NCBI RefSeq assembly: GCF_009659535.1
Contig: NZ_VJZZ01000004.1
Span: forward strand, 372,001-436,000
Reading direction: 5' to 3'
Origin: Aggregicoccus sp. 17bor-14
Lineage (GTDB): Bacteria; Myxococcota; Myxococcia; Myxococcales; Myxococcaceae
DNA: 64,000 nt
The notes under the pieces were generated by a model, which was given only the letters and a program-made list of their open reading frames with translations, made no database searches and had not been told where the DNA came from. A program made the translations under genes and the position numbers. How positions within the stretch are numbered: the stretch's first letter is position 1; every line of letters starts with the position of its first letter. Of this stretch, positions 169 to 64,000 are shown one piece after another.

Positions 169-242
169 CGCGCCCAGAGGGACTTGAACCCCCAACCCTC
201 GGCTTCGAAGGCCGATGCTCTATCCAGTTGAGCTATAGGCGC
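169..242 (-). tRNA. tRNA-Arg (anticodon TCG)
   Basis: The minus strand folds as a tRNA. Acceptor arms GCGCCTA and TGGGCGC pair, T8-A9 is followed by D-stem GCTC, and the anticodon stem TCGGC/GCCGA closes a 7-nt loop with anticodon TCG, which reads CGA. The T-loop has TTCAAGT. CCA is not encoded. It is the last of four minus-strand tRNA genes. Confidence 0.93.
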
Positions 243-275
243 TTGAGAGTGGGCGAAGCAGAGGGGGCGAAGAAG

Positions 276-350
276 GGCGGCCAACCGGGATCGAACCGGT
301 AACCTCAGGAGTCACAGTCCTGCGCTCTAACCAGTTGAGCTATGGCCGCC
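276..350 (-). tRNA. tRNA-His (anticodon GTG)
   Basis: The anticodon stem CAGGA/TCCTG encloses CTGTGAC, giving anticodon GTG. Counting back from T8-A9-GCTC leaves an extra G at position -1, at 350, opposite C73 at 276. That extra G-1:C73 pair is the identity element of histidine tRNAs. CCA is not encoded. Confidence 0.95.
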
Positions 351-395
351 GTCACGACTCGCACCCAGCTCCCGAGCAGCGGAGCGGGGCGCGCT

Positions 396-424
396 TCCCT
401 ATCCTGGATGCCAGGGCGGTTCAA
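396..424 (-). promoter_or_regulatory. Possible sigma70-type promoter for tRNA-His
   Basis: On the minus strand a TTGAAC box (419-424) and a TAGGGA box (396-401) are separated by exactly 17 nt and lie about 45 nt upstream of tRNA-His. The -10 box is a poor match, so this is tentative. The tRNA could instead be processed from the upstream tRNA transcript. Confidence 0.3.
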
Positions 425-445
425 GCCCTTTTCGGGGTGAAACGG

Positions 446-522
446 TGGCGCCCCGGGCGGGACTCGAACCCACGACCCTCGGCTTAGAAGGCCGATGCTC
501 TATCCAGCTGAGCTACCGGAGC
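446..522 (-). tRNA. tRNA-Arg (anticodon TCT), CCA encoded
   Basis: The anticodon stem TCGGC/GCCGA encloses CTTCTAA, giving anticodon TCT for AGA codons. The acceptor GCTCCGG pairs with CCGGGGC using one G-T wobble. The discriminator base is G and is followed by an encoded CCA at 446-448. It is the only one of the four tRNAs here with a genomic CCA. It lies 31 nt after tRNA-Pro and is probably cotranscribed with it. Confidence 0.94.
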
Positions 523-553
523 CCGACGTTTCACACCGTACGGCTACGACGAA

Positions 554-627
554 TCGGGACGAGAGGATTCGAACCTCCGACCCCCTGCGCCCAAGGCAGG
601 TGCGCTACCAGGCTGCGCTACGTCCCG
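554..627 (-). tRNA. tRNA-Pro (anticodon TGG)
   Basis: The acceptor CGGGACG/CGTCCCG is perfect. The D-arm begins TAGCGC, the anticodon stem CCTGC/GCAGG encloses CTTGGGC with anticodon TGG, and the T-loop has TTCGAAT. The discriminator is A and CCA is not encoded. It is the most upstream of the four minus-strand tRNA genes. Confidence 0.94.
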
Positions 628-57898: not shown

Positions 57899-58294
57899 TC
57901 AGTGCCGCTGCTGCAGGCGGCGCTCGAGCGCGCCGCGCACGCTCCAGCCGGCGAGCCCCACCAGCAGCGCGAGCAGGAAGATGACCCCCAGCGTGGTCGC
58001 GCCGAACACGAGCCGCACCCCGAGCTCGCTCACGCGGCCCTCGAGGTACGCGTCGCGCAGGGGCGAGAGCGCCCCCACCAGCTCCAGCGCCCGCGCGGGC
58101 AGCGAGTCCAGCGAGAGCGAGAGGCGCTGCAGGAAGCGCGAGGGGTACATGCGCCGGCCCAGCTCCACGCCGATGCCCAGCAGCAGGTAGAGCACCGAGA
58201 GGATGAAGGCATTGCCGCCGAGCACCGACCACAGCGGGGCGCGCGGGCGCGGGCCCGAGGGCGGCGAGCGGGGTGTGCCGGCAGGTGCGCTCAC
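57899..58294 (-). CDS. Integral membrane protein of unknown function
   Basis: The 131-residue protein starts with GTG at 58294, overlapping the upstream TPR gene stop as GTGA. A Pro/Arg-rich N-terminus leads to two transmembrane helices: one near residue 30 (NAFILSVLYLLLGIGVELG) and one near residue 105 (TTLGVIFLLALLVGLAGW). An extracytoplasmic loop of about 50 residues (RRMYPSRFLQRLSLSLDSLP) lies between them. It is coupled to the large TPR protein and may be its membrane partner. Confidence 0.72.
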   Translation of the reverse strand: MSAPAGTPRSPPSGPRPRAPLWSVLGGNAFILSVLYLLLGIGVELGRRMYPSRFLQRLSLSLDSLPARALELVGALSPLRDAYLEGRVSELGVRLVFGATTLGVIFLLALLVGLAGWSVRGALERRLQQRH

Positions 58295-61200
58295 TGGCCC
58301 ACCGCCACGAGCCGGCGCTTGAGCGTGGGCACGAGCTTCTTCACCCGCGCGGCCTCGGGCGCGGCGCCTGCGCGCTCGAGGAAGGCCTCGTACTCGGCGA
58401 GCGCGCGGCCCGGGTCCGTGCGCTCGAGGGACTCGGCGAGCGCGAGGCGCACGAGCCCGTCCGCGGGCTCGAGCTCGGCGGCGCGCTGCAGCGCCGTGCG
58501 CCCCGCCTCCTCCTGGCGCTGGCGCAGCAGCACCAGGCCGAGCGCGAGCTGGGCGCGGCCGGACTGCGGGTCCAGCTTCACGGCCTCCTCGGCCGCGGCG
58601 CGCGCCTCTTTCGGCGCGCCCGTGGCGAGCAGCACCCGCGCGAGCGCCGCCTGCGCAAAGGCGCGGTCCGCGGCGCTCGGGGCCTTGCCGGCGAGCTGCT
58701 GCAGCGCGCGCACCGCGGGCTTGCCGCCGCCCTCCGGCAGCTCGGACCAGTAGGCGCCCACCTGGCCGCAGGCGCTCTCGGGCTCCTCGCGCCGCGCCGC
58801 CTCGAAGGCCTTCTGCGCGCCCCCGGCGTTGCCCTGGCGCAGGAAGGCGTGGCCGATCTCGCAGAAGGTGGGGGCGCTGTGCGGGTCCAGCTTGTTCGCG
58901 CGCTCGAGCGCGGCGAAGCCCGCCTTCGCGTCGCCTGCGCGGAAGGCGAGCACCGCGCGCAGGCGCTGCGCCTCGGGGTCCGCGGGAGAGAGCTTCACGG
59001 CGCGCGCGGACGCCGCGTCCGCCTCGGCGACCCGGCCCGCCTGCAGCAGGGCGAGCGCGAAGCCCTTCTGCCCCCGCGCATCGCCCGGGTTGTCCAGCTG
59101 CCACGCCTCGTACTGCTTGAGCGCCTCGGGGCCGCGGCCCAGCGCGAGCAGCGTGCGGCCCAGCGCGTCGCGCGCCTCACCGTGGTAGCCGTTGCGGGCC
59201 ACCGCCTGGTTCAGCGGCTCGAGCGCGAGGTCCGGCAGCCCCAGGGAGAGCAGAAGCCGGCCGAGCGCGCAGGCGCCCTCGGCGTCGAGCGGATCCTTGC
59301 TCGCGGACTCGAACTGGCTGCGGGCGCGGTCGCGCTGGCCCAACTGCCAGTACACCTTGCCCAGGGCCACCTGCACGGGCCCGCGCGCGCTGCGCACCGA
59401 GGCCAGCGTGCGCTCGAGCACGCTGCGCGCCTGCTCGGCGTTGCCCGCCGCCGCGTCCGCGAGGGCGAGGTACACCACGGCCTCCGTGGGGTAGCGGTCG
59501 CTCACCCGCGTGCGGGCGAGCTCGGCGCGGGCGCGCTTCCAGTCGCCCAGGCGCGTGTACGCCGCGCCGCGCACCAGGGCCACCTTGCGCCCGGGCGCCT
59601 CGCCCAGCCGCGCGAGCGCGTCGCGCTCGCGGTCGCGGTCCACCAGCGTGCGCCCCAGCCCCTCGAGCGCCTCCTCGTTGTCGGCGCGCAGGGCCAGCGC
59701 CGCCTCGAAGGCGCGCTGGGCCGCGGGCAGGTCTCCGGCCACGCGCGCCACCTGCCCGAGGGCGAGCTGCACCTCGAAGGAGCGCGGCCCCTCGGCCTGC
59801 GCGGCGAGGAGGCTGCGCGCCTCCGGATGGCGGCCCAGCGCCGAGAGCAGCCGCGCCTGTGCGAGCACCTGGCGCTCGCGCAGGCCCTCGGGCAGGCCCG
59901 CGCCCTTCTCGCGCGCGAGCTCCCGGCCCAGCGCCTCCATGTCCGCGAGCGCCTGGGGCAGCTCCTGGCCCAGCGCGATGCGGGCCTCCGCGCTGCCCAC
60001 CCGCACGGCCGGGTGCTGCGGGGAGGCCGAGCGCGCCGTCTCGTACACCTTGAGCGCGTTGGGCAGGTCTCCGTACTCGAGGTAGTAGCCCCCCAGTGCC
60101 ACCAGCGCGCGCACGTGGCGCGGCTGCAGCGCGAGCGCGCGCTGGAAGTGGCCCACGGCGGCCTTCGCGTCGTGCTCGCGCAGCGCGAGCTGGCCGGCGA
60201 GCGCGTGCACCTCCGCGTTCTCCAGGCTCGAGCCGAGCAGCGCAGCGCGGGCGGCGGGGCGCGCGGCGTCGTCCGCCACGCGCAGGTCCGTCACCAGCGC
60301 GAGCGCCGGCTGCTCCGCGCGCACGCCCGGGTGCGCGAGCGCCTCGAGGGCGAGGCGGCGCTCCTCGGGGCTCTGCCCCTGCTCGGAGAAGCGCAGCGCG
60401 TGCGCGTGCGCGCTCAGGCCCCAGGCCCGCGTGCTCTCCGGGTCCATCTCGTGCGCGCGCGAGAGCAGGGTGAGCGCACGCTCCAGTGAGGCGGGCGTGT
60501 CCTCACCGAGCGCCCGCTCCGCCAGGTCCAGGGTCTCGCCCAGCGTCTGCCCGCCCTGCGCAGCGCGGCGGGTGAAGAAGACGCCGGCGCCCACCCCCAG
60601 CACCACGAGCGCGACGAGCGCGAGCGCGAGCTTCGGTCCGTGGCGGCGCAGCAGCGAGGGGCGAGCCTCCTGCTGCGCGAGCTTCTCGCGCAGCTCGCGC
60701 TCGTAGGCCTGGGCAATCTCCGCGGCACGCGTCGGCGTGGTCGCGGTGGGCGCGCTCGCGGCGAGCTCCGGGGCCGCCGGGGGCGCGAGCTCGGGCAGGT
60801 CCTCCAGCAGCGAGCGCTTGGAGCGCGCGGGCGCCGGGACGGGCTCGGGCAGCGGCTCGGGAGGCGGCGGGAGGAGCTCTCCGAGCAGGCCTCCGCCGTC
60901 ACCGCCCGCCACCGGGGCCGCGGCCTCCTGCGGGTCCGCCCAGCTGGGCAGCGCGACGTCCAGGGCGGGCTCGCCCGCGTTGCCCTCGGGAGCGGAGGCG
61001 GCGTGCTCGCTCACGCCCTGGAGGCCGCCGTCGAGCGCCTGCAGCACCGGCGGGGCGAAATCATTCGAGCCGGGCGAGGAGTCCACGGGCTGCAGCACCG
61101 GCGGGGCACCCGCGCTGGGCGGGGCCTCCACCGGCTGCAGCACGGGGGGGCCGCCCTCCGCGGACACGAGCACGGGCGGTGCGCCGCGGGAGCGCTCGGG

Positions 61201-62145
61201 ACGCGCGCGGCGCACCACCTGCGGCAAGCCCGCCTCGCGCGGGGCGGCCGCGCGCGGCGCCTCGTGCACCGGGGTGCCCTGCGCCGGCGTGCTCAGGTCC
61301 ACGTCCTCGGAGGGAAGCTCCGGCTTCCCGGCGCGCCCGCCCGCCGCCGCGGGGCTGGGCAGCGCGTTCGCGTCACCCGCAGCGGAAGTCGCGGTTGCCG
61401 CGGGGCCGGGCAGCGCGATTGCGTCGGGCCCGGCGGAGTGCGTCCGCCCAGCGGGGCCCGGCAGGGCAATCGCCTCGCCCGCGGCGCTCGTCCCCACGGC
61501 GGAGGAGGCAGGCTCCTCCCGTCCGGCGCGCGGCGCCGTCTGCGCACGGAGCCCCGAGGACTTCGCGTTCCCTGCTGCGGGCGCCTCGGCGGTGCTCGAG
61601 GGGCGCGCGCTCGAAGCGCTCACTGCGTCCGGAGCGTGCGTCGATGCGTCGGTGGCGGGCGCGTCCGGGTCGTGGGCCCCCGCGGCGTCCTGCGCGCGCG
61701 TCACGCTGTGGAGGTCGGCGAAGACGGGTGCGGGGCCGCCGGCGAGCGCGCCCTGCGTCTGCTCCAGCCACAGCCGCACGCGCCCGTCCTCGGGCTGCAG
61801 CGCCACGGCCTTGCGCAGGATGGGCAGCGCGGAGCGGTAGAGCCCGCGCTGCAGCAGCGTCTCGCCGATGAGGTTGTAGGCGTGCGGGTTGTCGCGGTCG
61901 ATCGCGATGGCCTGGTCGAACTGGGACATCGCCTCGGCGGGGCGCCCCTGGACGATGAGCGCCTTGCCCCACAGCACGCGGCCCACCACCGAGGTGGGGT
62001 GGTGCGTGAGCCCCTGCGCGCAGACCTCCACGGCGCGCGCCGGGTCTCCGGCATCGAGCAGCGCGCGCGCGAGCTCCACGAACACGGTGGAGGTTGGATC
62101 CTGGGCGAGGACTTGCGCGTAGCGCTCCACCATCGACTTGGCCAT
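58291..62145 (-). CDS. Large TPR protein with internal transmembrane helix
   Basis: The protein is about 1284 residues. TPR units occupy the first 130 (MAKSMVERYAQVLAQDPTST, then YNLIGETLLQRGLYRSAL). An Ala/Pro-rich linker (about 140-490) carries repeats IALPGPA and PPVLQPV. A single transmembrane helix (LALALVALVVLGVGAGVFF) lies near residue 510. From about 540 to the end is a long TPR superhelix (more than 15 units). The topology would put the N-terminal TPRs in the cytoplasm and the rest in the periplasm. Its role is unknown. An upstream ATG at 62202 is possible, but MAKSMVERY is preferred. Confidence 0.82.
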   Translation of the reverse strand: MAKSMVERYAQVLAQDPTSTVFVELARALLDAGDPARAVEVCAQGLTHHPTSVVGRVLWGKALIVQGRPAEAMSQFDQAIAIDRDNPHAYNLIGETLLQRGLYRSALPILRKAVALQPEDGRVRLWLEQTQGALAGGPAPVFADLHSVTRAQDAAGAHDPDAPATDASTHAPDAVSASSARPSSTAEAPAAGNAKSSGLRAQTAPRAGREEPASSAVGTSAAGEAIALPGPAGRTHSAGPDAIALPGPAATATSAAGDANALPSPAAAGGRAGKPELPSEDVDLSTPAQGTPVHEAPRAAAPREAGLPQVVRRARPERSRGAPPVLVSAEGGPPVLQPVEAPPSAGAPPVLQPVDSSPGSNDFAPPVLQALDGGLQGVSEHAASAPEGNAGEPALDVALPSWADPQEAAAPVAGGDGGGLLGELLPPPPEPLPEPVPAPARSKRSLLEDLPELAPPAAPELAASAPTATTPTRAAEIAQAYERELREKLAQQEARPSLLRRHGPKLALALVALVVLGVGAGVFFTRRAAQGGQTLGETLDLAERALGEDTPASLERALTLLSRAHEMDPESTRAWGLSAHAHALRFSEQGQSPEERRLALEALAHPGVRAEQPALALVTDLRVADDAARPAARAALLGSSLENAEVHALAGQLALREHDAKAAVGHFQRALALQPRHVRALVALGGYYLEYGDLPNALKVYETARSASPQHPAVRVGSAEARIALGQELPQALADMEALGRELAREKGAGLPEGLRERQVLAQARLLSALGRHPEARSLLAAQAEGPRSFEVQLALGQVARVAGDLPAAQRAFEAALALRADNEEALEGLGRTLVDRDRERDALARLGEAPGRKVALVRGAAYTRLGDWKRARAELARTRVSDRYPTEAVVYLALADAAAGNAEQARSVLERTLASVRSARGPVQVALGKVYWQLGQRDRARSQFESASKDPLDAEGACALGRLLLSLGLPDLALEPLNQAVARNGYHGEARDALGRTLLALGRGPEALKQYEAWQLDNPGDARGQKGFALALLQAGRVAEADAASARAVKLSPADPEAQRLRAVLAFRAGDAKAGFAALERANKLDPHSAPTFCEIGHAFLRQGNAGGAQKAFEAARREEPESACGQVGAYWSELPEGGGKPAVRALQQLAGKAPSAADRAFAQAALARVLLATGAPKEARAAAEEAVKLDPQSGRAQLALGLVLLRQRQEEAGRTALQRAAELEPADGLVRLALAESLERTDPGRALAEYEAFLERAGAAPEAARVKKLVPTLKRRLVAVGQ

Positions 62146-62252
62146 GGGCGTTGCAGACTCCGGTGCGGACTCTCGGAAGAGCGGGCGGGGGCGCGAGACC
62201 ATAGCACCCGTGCGCGCGCCTCCGGCCTCCCTTGGTGCTAGCCTGCCGCACC

Positions 62253-62681
62253 GTGATCCGCCTGCTCGCCCTGCTCCTGTGCCTCCTCCCCGTACTGGGT
62301 GGGGGCTGTTCCCACACGAAGCCCCGCTCCAGCGGGTTGGAGGGCCTGCGCCCAGTCGTGGAGGACTTCCACAAGATGGTGCGCTGGGGCGAGTACCGCG
62401 CCGCGGCGCGCTACGTCGTGCCCGAGCGGCGCGCGGACTTCGAGCGCGCGCGCCGCGAGCTCAACGACGCGCGCGACCTCTCCATCACCGACTACGAGAT
62501 CGACGAGGCCACGCTCGCCCCCGACGAGCAGCACGCCACCGTCGTCAGCCGCATCCAGTGGATGCGCCTGCCGTCGATGAGCGCGAAGACCTCCACGGTG
62601 ACGTCGCAGTTCGTCTACGTGAACGGGGCCTGGCTGCTCGAGCGCCAGAGCGAGGGCCCCTTCGCGGACGCGCTGCGCTAG
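62253..62681 (+). CDS. Small lipoprotein of unknown function
   Basis: A GTG start at 62253 gives a 142-residue protein with signal VIRLLALLLCLLPVLGGGCS and lipobox LGGGC. The mature part resembles an NTF2-like or cystatin-like small alpha+beta domain: LRPVVEDFHKMVRWGEYRAA, then ITDYEIDEATLAPDEQHATV and SQFVYVNGAWLLER. I am not certain of the fold. It is divergent from the large TPR gene. Confidence 0.72.
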   Translation: MIRLLALLLCLLPVLGGGCSHTKPRSSGLEGLRPVVEDFHKMVRWGEYRAAARYVVPERRADFERARRELNDARDLSITDYEIDEATLAPDEQHATVVSRIQWMRLPSMSAKTSTVTSQFVYVNGAWLLERQSEGPFADALR

Positions 62682-62699
62682 CGAGGCTGCAGCACGCTC

Positions 62700-62744
62700 A
62701 AAAAAATCCGCCCGCCACCCCGGGGCCGGCCGAGGTGACGGGCG
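62700..62744 (-). terminator. Intrinsic terminator of the putative small RNA
   Basis: On the minus strand an 11-bp stem (62734-62744 with 62709-62719, one G-U pair) ends in GGA and seven T (62700-62706). It would also stop read-through from the minus-strand SDR gene, whose stop is about 220 nt upstream. Confidence 0.8.
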
Positions 62745-62777
62745 TCGGGAGCTCCCCCATGGAGCGCCCATGTCGGA
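62700..62777 (-). ncRNA. Putative small RNA with sigma54 promoter and terminator
   Basis: A sigma54 consensus at 62788-62803 would start a transcript near 62777. The transcript ends at a strong terminator (62700-62744), giving about 78 nt. Its 5' half has a small hairpin, GCTCC-ATGG-GGGAGC (about 62749-62764). There is no credible ORF. The layout (sigma54 promoter, about 80 nt, intrinsic terminator) is like the myxobacterial developmental sRNA Pxr. Whether it is Pxr cannot be decided from memory. Confidence 0.6.
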
Positions 62778-62787
62778 GGACCCGAAG

Positions 62788-62803
62788 AGCAATCCAGGTG
62801 CCA
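62788..62803 (-). promoter_or_regulatory. Sigma54 promoter, near-consensus
   Basis: On the minus strand the sequence is TGGCAC-CTGGA-TTGCT, matching TGGCACGN4TTGCW at all but one fixed position. The GG-N10-GC spacing is exact. It points toward the small-RNA region and not toward an annotated ORF. Confidence 0.75.
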
Positions 62804-62963
62804 CCTCGGAGCTTCTCAGGGGCCGCTCGGGAAATCGGGCAGTTGGGCTGACGCAGGGCCTGCGGGGCCCCCTCCCTCCCCGCGGGATGCGACACGACTG
62901 TCAGGGACGGCGTGCAGCGGGCTGCACGCGGGTGGGCAAAGGGCTGCGCACCCGCTCCCCTGT

Positions 62964-63938
62964 CTACTCGCCGAGCACGGCGCGGATGGTCTCGCGCATC
63001 GTGTGGCGCGGCTGCCACGCCACGTCCTCGCGCCAGCGCGCGCCGTCCACCGCGCAGAGGAACTGGATGTGGTCCAGCTCCGGCGGCGGGAAGCTCGCGA
63101 GCCGGTACTTGAAGAGCGCGCCGAGCAGCGGGCGCGCGAGGGGATGGGGCACGGGGATGGGCGTGCTGCCCAGCTCGCGGAAGATGGCGGAGAGCGGCAC
63201 CTCGCCGGGGCCCACCACGTTGTAGACGCCGCGCAGGCCGGGCCGCAGCGCCTCCACCATCGCGCGCGCCACGTCCTCCACGTGGATGAGCTGCACCATG
63301 GGATCGAAACCCGCGAGCACCCACGGGTGGCGCTTGCGCAGGTAGTTGCTGGGCGCGTTCTTGATGCCCGGCCCCACGATGTGCACCGGGCGCAGGATGA
63401 CCGTCTCGATGTCCGGGTGCTTCCAGAAGAAGCCGTGCGCGAGCATGTCCACCTCGATGAGGTCGCGCACGCCCGAGAAGCGGCTCGCGCCCATGAGGGG
63501 CGCATCCTCGGTGAGGAAGTTCGAGTTGTCGGGGCTGGGGCCGTAGACGTTCGCGCTGCTGAGCACCACCAGCTTCTTCACGCCGTACTTCGCGCAGTAC
63601 TCGAGCAGGCGCGTGGTGCCCACCACGTTGAAGGAGTGGTGCTCCTCCTCGCTCATGCGCGGGTCGTGCATGATGCCCATGTGGATGACGGCGCGCACGT
63701 CGTGCTTGCGGAACACGTCCTCCGCCTTCTTCTTGCGCAGGTCCAGCTGGTGCATCTCCACGTCCTTGGGCGCGCCCACGAAGGGGCGGCGGTCCAGGCC
63801 GAGGATGCGCTCGCGCGTGTGCAGCAGCTTCGCCAGCGTGCGGCCGAGGTTGCCGCTGATGCCGGTGACCACCACGCCGGGGCGCTCGCGCCCAGCGCCG
63901 CTGGAGCCGCCGCTGCCGCCCTTCTCGCGCGGGCTCAC
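62964..63938 (-). CDS. NAD-dependent epimerase/dehydratase (SDR family)
   Basis: The 324-residue extended-SDR protein starts with GTG at 63938. After a glycine-rich tail, VVVTGISGNLGRTLAKLLHT holds the NAD-binding GxxGxxG. VIHMGIMHDPRMSEEEH follows. The usual YxxxK active site is not evident: the region reads LVVLSSANVYGPSPDNSNF, so Tyr is at YGP. It is related to UDP-sugar epimerases but the substrate is not assigned. The start overlaps the upstream gene's stop as GTGA. Confidence 0.85.
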   Translation of the reverse strand: MSPREKGGSGGSSGAGRERPGVVVTGISGNLGRTLAKLLHTRERILGLDRRPFVGAPKDVEMHQLDLRKKKAEDVFRKHDVRAVIHMGIMHDPRMSEEEHHSFNVVGTTRLLEYCAKYGVKKLVVLSSANVYGPSPDNSNFLTEDAPLMGASRFSGVRDLIEVDMLAHGFFWKHPDIETVILRPVHIVGPGIKNAPSNYLRKRHPWVLAGFDPMVQLIHVEDVARAMVEALRPGLRGVYNVVGPGEVPLSAIFRELGSTPIPVPHPLARPLLGALFKYRLASFPPPELDHIQFLCAVDGARWREDVAWQPRHTMRETIRAVLGE

Positions 63939-64000
63939 CGGAACACCCCCTGGCGCTCGCGCAGCCCCTGGTTGAGCAGGGTCTGGATGGCGCCCTTCAC
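63935..64000 (-). CDS. C-terminal end of an unidentified protein (partial)
   Basis: The minus-strand frame entering from the right edge gives 21 residues ending LNQGLRERQGVFR before a TGA at 63935-63937. It overlaps the SDR start as GTGA, so the two genes are coupled. The fragment is too short to identify. Confidence 0.6.
   Translation of the reverse strand: MKGAIQTLLNQGLRERQGVFR

Follow-up and report, generated by a model that had tools for sequence, protein, structure and literature searches.

A predicted σ54-controlled small RNA family, distinct from Pxr, in Myxococcaceae and two neighbouring families

Locus and predicted transcript

The locus lies between an epimerase gene and a convergent lipoprotein-like gene in a 64-kb stretch of DNA that was analysed as a whole and is here called the window. 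Its features are as follows.

62964-63938, minus strand: upstream neighbour, NAD-dependent epimerase gene (Pfam PF01370)
62890-62903, minus strand: upstream activating site (UAS), palindrome TGACAGTCGTGTCG (consensus TGACA-N4-TGTCA), a putative enhancer-binding-protein site, conserved across loci
62832-62845, minus strand: IHF-like element of the CAA-N4-(T/C)TGA type, between UAS and promoter, recognized by resemblance
62788-62803, minus strand: σ54 −24/−12 promoter TGGCACCTGGATTGCT (TGGCAC-N5-TTGCT), from a pattern match and conservation across distinct loci
62700-62777, minus strand: predicted small RNA of 78 nt, with +1 at 62777 placed from the −12 position
62747-62769, minus strand: hairpin SL1 with AUNGG pentaloop (AUGGG in the window copy), two-sided changes in 7 of 9 pairs
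62709-62744, minus strand: hairpin SL2, intrinsic terminator stem with CGGCCGGCCCCG tip, from a terminator scan and covariation
62700-62706, minus strand: terminator T-run (T7 to 62700)
62232-62681, plus strand: convergent neighbour, 149-aa lipoprotein-like gene (no Pfam match)

The σ54 site at 62803-62788, already reported in a preliminary description of this DNA, is perfect (11/11 positions) and is the sole zero-mismatch match within the window. When up to one mismatch is allowed, the window has three matches versus 1.5 expected by chance, and therefore the motif alone is little proof. The promoter is not followed by the start of any protein gene. Its −12 C is at 62789, which puts the predicted transcription start 12 nt further on, at 62777.

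The terminator (62744-62709 followed by T7) has a 15-bp stem and is the stronger of two terminator-like sites in 62200-64000, where 0.3 are expected. A 79-nt stretch (62778-62700) that is near-identical to the predicted RNA forms two hairpins, with a folding energy of −47.6 kcal/mol (z −2.9). The hairpin, the strong terminator ending at 62700 and the lack of a gene behind the promoter, all noted in the preliminary description, are confirmed. Its estimate of an RNA of about 78 nt agrees with our prediction in both length and coordinates. A hidden ORF in the sRNA was rejected, as start codon and frame were seen by inspection to vary across alignments.

Two other parts of the window are recorded here. 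A gene for a 1303-aa TPR-repeat protein (58291-62202, minus strand) is conserved and adjoins the sRNA locus family-wide, and four tRNA genes are clustered at 169-627 (minus strand).

Conservation and phylogenetic range

In a DNA search of 60 relatives, 38 proved to have a conserved RNA part, and a pattern scan of named genomes gave matches in Myxococcus, Corallococcus, Pyxidicoccus, Archangium, Hyalangium, Citreicoccus and uncultured relatives. We used a covariance model, R1, derived from a 32-sequence alignment with 76 positions and 24 pairs. On the window copy, which is itself among these 32 sequences, R1 scores 90.8 bits (62775-62700). The model matches 95 of 96 family genomes, including all 83 of good quality, and all 26 genera. 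Across the phylum it matches 101 of 195 genomes, made up of the family, one genome of a second family (f2) and five of a third (f3). None of the other phylum genomes among the 195, the rest of the order included, has a match.

The alignment supports the predicted structure. Paired cells make up 95.2% in the R1 alignment, and 15 of the 24 pairs have two-sided compensatory changes; these amount to 89 cells, compared with 28 ± 8 in shuffled controls and at most 9 in slid controls. The promoter is similarly retained. Among 75 distinct loci, the σ54 site matches at 11/11 positions in 58, at 10/11 in 13 and at 8-9/11 in 4, so that 71 loci have at least 10/11. The preliminary description had named conservation of promoter and stem-loops in relatives as a property on which its proposal would stand or fall, and both are clearly conserved. 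Because of this conservation, a chance origin of the promoter and hairpins is excluded.

The arrangement of neighbouring genes permits another reading, in which the hairpins are the 3′-end structure or terminator of the epimerase gene or of the convergent lipoprotein gene, rather than an sRNA. In most family members the hairpins do lie between these genes (the epimerase is the upstream neighbour in 53 of the 75 loci, and the convergent neighbour is present in 38), and in many the T-run abuts the lipoprotein stop codon. However, the conserved σ54 promoter and UAS separate the epimerase gene from the hairpins, and the lipoprotein strand has no T-run. Moreover, the f3 copies and a second copy in the host genome adjoin other genes, promoter included, and a terminator would not need the degree of conservation seen in the loops and SL1. 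We regard this reading as very improbable. The stand-alone σ54-driven, terminated unit between two protein genes, as originally proposed, is instead supported as a predicted unit that is conserved family-wide. It is almost certainly a real σ54-controlled sRNA gene, with transcription itself being predicted from the DNA, and the family appears to be near-universal in Myxococcaceae and to extend to two neighbouring families.

RNA structure and variant forms

The AUNGG pentaloop of SL1 is found in 76 of 77 family units and in all 8 distant or paralogous copies tested, and the paralog in the host genome likewise carries it. In f2 and f3, the closing pair of SL1 changes from C-G to G-C or A-U, and the pentaloop is unchanged. 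The 12-nt tip of SL2, CGGCCGGCCCCG, is invariant in all units collected; the units scored for it were partly selected by the motif itself, and 30 loci found only by BLAST also carry the tip. With loops that are invariant on stems that covary, constraint falls on the loops, and over most of their length the stems need only be able to pair. Within the family, the tip together with a T-run was found solely at the sRNA locus, and we therefore rejected the idea that the tip is a general terminator motif. The single-stranded leader is short and unstructured, and ends in GGUNAGG.

Measured from +1 to the T-run, the predicted lengths at 55 single-unit loci form two clusters, with 24 loci at 77-79 nt and 20 at 124-132 nt. 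The longer forms (about 128 nt) mostly have an extra 5′ hairpin. Most genera have a single unit, while in Myxococcus a single promoter is followed by 2-4 tandem SL1-SL2 units, each of 71 nt. Three tandem Myxococcus-type units with UAS and σ54 site also occur in a record labelled Comamonas sp. KCTC 72670 (L079, BNCN01000011.1), which looks mislabelled or contaminated.

The second, diverged copy in the host genome (G000:C6:375222-375297; L102 1501-1576) scores 65.4 bits and comes with a UAS, an IHF-like element and a perfect σ54 site (TGGCACTGCGGTTGCT) of its own. Its T-run is weaker, and a patatin-like gene is near. A second copy in another genome (G056, L135) has neither a σ54 nor a UAS match. 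At the f3 loci examined, the genes adjoining the sRNA differ from those in the family. In two of these loci (L137 and L138), the sRNA adjoins a gene with FHA, GAF and nucleotide-cyclase domains, and not the epimerase gene.

Upstream control region

In keeping with an sRNA under the control of σ54 and an enhancer-binding protein, the conserved −24/−12 promoter lies directly upstream of the RNA, and putative enhancer-protein sites (TGACA-N4-TGTCA) usually lie about 90-112 bp before the −24 box, often with a second copy about 45 bp further. The UAS matches at 8/10 positions or better in 66 of the 75 distinct loci, and perfectly in 38. Of the nine loci below this level, five have too little upstream sequence, three belong to a small-genome lineage (g20) and one is degenerate. 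The combined UAS and σ54 pattern was found in 61 of the 96 family genomes, nearly always at the sRNA locus only, while the reversed control gave 0. The f2 copy and most f3 copies retain both elements, although one f3 copy (L137) has a σ54 site of only 8/11. The palindrome is very likely the activator site.

An IHF-like element, for example CAACCCCTTGAATCTCC or CAAGTGCCTGATTTCC, was seen by inspection in the same place at most loci. The IHF consensus is CAANNNNTTR, and the resemblance suggests that IHF may bind here. Directly upstream of the UAS in the window, there is also a perfect inverted repeat, GTGCAGC-CC-GCTGCAC (62912-62927).

Other matches to the combined pattern are few, and include sites upstream of an lpxC-like gene and of a gene for an outer-membrane-type protein. 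These probably reflect chance rather than a wider regulon of the activator. The combination upstream of the lpxC-like gene (L221, G011:C771:4876-4988) resembles that of the sRNA, and could be either chance or a second regulon member. The host genome has four further UAS-like sites, none of them close to a σ54 site.

The palindromes upstream of pxr loci are TTTCAG...TGAAA, and the published NmpR site is GCGCA-N5-TGCGC (PMC11841059). The UAS of the sRNA differs from both, and therefore its activator is likely different from the proteins acting at those sites. A comparison of the activator genes of small genomes gave two candidates that are present in f3, where the UAS is kept, and absent in g20, where it is lost. 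They are orthologs of G000:C25:37052 (an NtrC-like response regulator) and of G000:C1:282976 (an FHA-GAF-AAA+ protein). Since these are draft genomes, their candidacy is suggestive only.

The g20 lineage kept the sRNA, but its UAS is gone and its −24 box partly so. In its three loci (L005, L007 and L067, from genomes of 2.1-2.7 Mb), the −24 box is altered (TGGCC..), and TTGCATTTTGCA / TTGCATTTAGCA repeats occur upstream in place of TGACA-N4-TGTCA. This substitution suggests a change of activator, and the sRNA in g20 may be expressed differently.

Relationship to Pxr

The preliminary description suggested that the RNA might be Pxr or a new sRNA. The general layout is indeed alike, with a σ54 promoter, hairpins and a terminator, and the Pxr model (RF01812) aligns to the locus end to end under permissive settings. 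However, the score of this alignment is 14.3 bits, far under the cut-off of 80, and no Rfam family reaches its threshold at the locus. The true pxr of the host genome is on another contig (G000:C12:99947-100054) and scores 86.9 bits. It lies about 0.7 kb behind a gene for an NtrC-type σ54 activator (C12:98716-99216), an order that corresponds to the published arrangement of the nla19/pxrR activator gene with pxr downstream (PMC5568312). Conversely, R1 is unconvincing on nine pxr loci, with 19 bits as its highest score anywhere in them and 18 bits on pxr.

Structure and context differ as well. Pxr has three stem-loops with a C-rich SL1 loop (UUCCCCC), whereas the core of the new sRNA has two hairpins with the SL1 loop AUNGG, and the 5′ hairpin added in its extended forms has another sequence. 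Instead of lying downstream of nla19/pxrR, it is flanked by the epimerase and lipoprotein-like genes. The palindromes upstream of the two RNAs are also unlike. Finally, the sRNA is present in f2, f3 and one further genome (G020), in all of which no Pxr match was found. We therefore reject Pxr membership, and give practically no credence to the sRNA being Pxr or a paralog of it; the alternative of a new sRNA proved right. Because f2 and f3 gave no Pxr match, the range of the predicted family is wider than that of Pxr and the sRNA is probably older.

A subtler connection would be that the sRNA antagonizes Pxr as a sponge, with GGGGAAC in its SL1 pairing with the UUCCCCC loop. A complementarity of 7-9 nt is visible, and mutation of the SL1 loop is known to inactivate Pxr (PMC5568312). 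By contrast, the predicted duplexes in 11 genomes were in no case clearly stronger than duplexes formed by shuffled sRNA (z −0.3 to +2.3), and the sRNA also occurs in genomes without a Pxr match. Such a role is highly improbable.

In loci L033-L044, the TTTCAG...TGAAA palindromes are conserved about 80-130 bp upstream of pxr, and upstream of an IHF-like element. They are likely binding sites of the Pxr activator.

In the open-access literature, Pxr was the only myxobacterial sRNA that we found, and no description matched the new sRNA. The predicted σ54-controlled family in the window is therefore apparently undescribed, as well as not being Pxr.

Possible mode of action

Given the promoter, putative activator site, terminator, structure and conservation, and with no detectable Hfq or CsrA genes, the best overall explanation is probably a new family of trans-acting sRNAs that is controlled by σ54 and an activator and functions without detectable Hfq or CsrA. 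At the TGGCAC-N5-TTGCT promoter, σ54-RNA polymerase would be activated by an enhancer-binding protein bound to TGACA-N4-TGTCA, and a DNA bend at the IHF-like site would probably assist. The polymerase would then yield a 78-nt RNA ending at SL2. This RNA would act in trans on a partner that is kept family-wide, and would do so by means of its two loops (the pentaloop AUNGG in SL1, CCGGCC in SL2). The partner could be a loop-binding protein that the RNA titrates, or mRNAs with which it pairs. We lean towards action in trans through the two loops, and consider titration and base pairing about even.

Searches for Hfq and for CsrA each gave 0 of 40 genomes, including the host, and were positive in the E. 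coli control. Therefore, neither protein can be assumed as a partner, and both were rejected in this role.

One tentative form of the preferred explanation is that the RNA is a decoy whose AUNGG hairpins titrate an RNA-binding protein, following the logic of CsrB/RsmZ or GlmY. The loop sequence is invariant while its closing pairs swap, and the unit has been amplified 2-4 times in tandem in Myxococcus; both features suit protein titration. On the other hand, the loop lacks the ANGGA-type motif of CsrA, a CsrA gene was not found, and most genera have a single unit.

The other form, which is likewise a tentative possibility, is an sRNA that base-pairs with mRNAs by its loops or its single-stranded leader, and so represses or activates them. 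Base pairing is the mode of known σ54-controlled sRNAs such as Qrr (PMC10162802), and the short unstructured leader would suit it. Points against it are that Hfq was not found and that the invariant stem bases by the SL2 loop exceed what simple pairing needs.

The most specific version of the titration idea is a protein-sequestering system, in which a near-universal σ54-controlled sRNA displays AUNGG hairpins to an RNA-binding protein without Hfq or CsrA, and tandem amplification in Myxococcus tunes the dosage. We consider this version rather unlikely. If true, it would make the AUNGG-displaying sRNA a new protein-sequestering RNA system.

Significance

Myxobacteria serve as models of multicellular development. 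σ54 and the proteins that activate it hold a central place in this programme, for which the σ54-controlled sRNA Pxr has been described. The family predicted here would be a second such sRNA. It is conserved over a wider range than Pxr and is served by a dedicated putative enhancer site, and the model genus Myxococcus has it as 2-4 tandem units. The motif of its activator site is a starting point for finding the enhancer-binding protein. Additionally, the sRNA is a deletable, tractable case in bacteria in which Hfq and CsrA were not detected.

Comparison with known systems

CrcZ/CrcY, which are activator-controlled, and the CsrB/RsmZ sponges resemble the new family in having repeated short display motifs. 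Their motifs are A-rich or contain GGA, while that of the sRNA is AUNGG. In particular, a sponge of the CsrB/RsmZ type would have ANGGA loops and a CsrA in the host, neither of which was found.

Qrr sRNAs use Hfq and are present in multiple copies in some species. In Vibrionaceae, they are small intergenic RNAs controlled by σ54 and an enhancer protein, LuxO/SypG (PMC10162802). The new sRNA shares this predicted mode of control and its small, intergenic nature, and is also multi-copy in some species. It differs in that its locus has no Rfam match and that Hfq was not detected in the host.

GlmY of Enterobacteriaceae has a σ54 promoter with the response regulator QseF/GlrR as activator, and captures the protein RapZ as a decoy (PMC7073468). 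The sRNA is similar in its σ54 promoter and as a small RNA that possibly captures a protein, although the decoy role is one of two readings here and the locus does not match this family in Rfam.

The difference from Pxr (RF01812), the σ54-controlled developmental sRNA of Myxococcus, lies in the lack of a significant sequence or structure match, in three hairpins versus two in the sRNA core, in another upstream palindrome and other neighbours, and in the wider range of the sRNA. Nevertheless, both RNAs are myxobacterial and intergenic, with a predicted σ54 promoter, upstream activator sites and an IHF-like element. Both are also hairpin RNAs with an intrinsic terminator that occur as tandem copies in some lineages.
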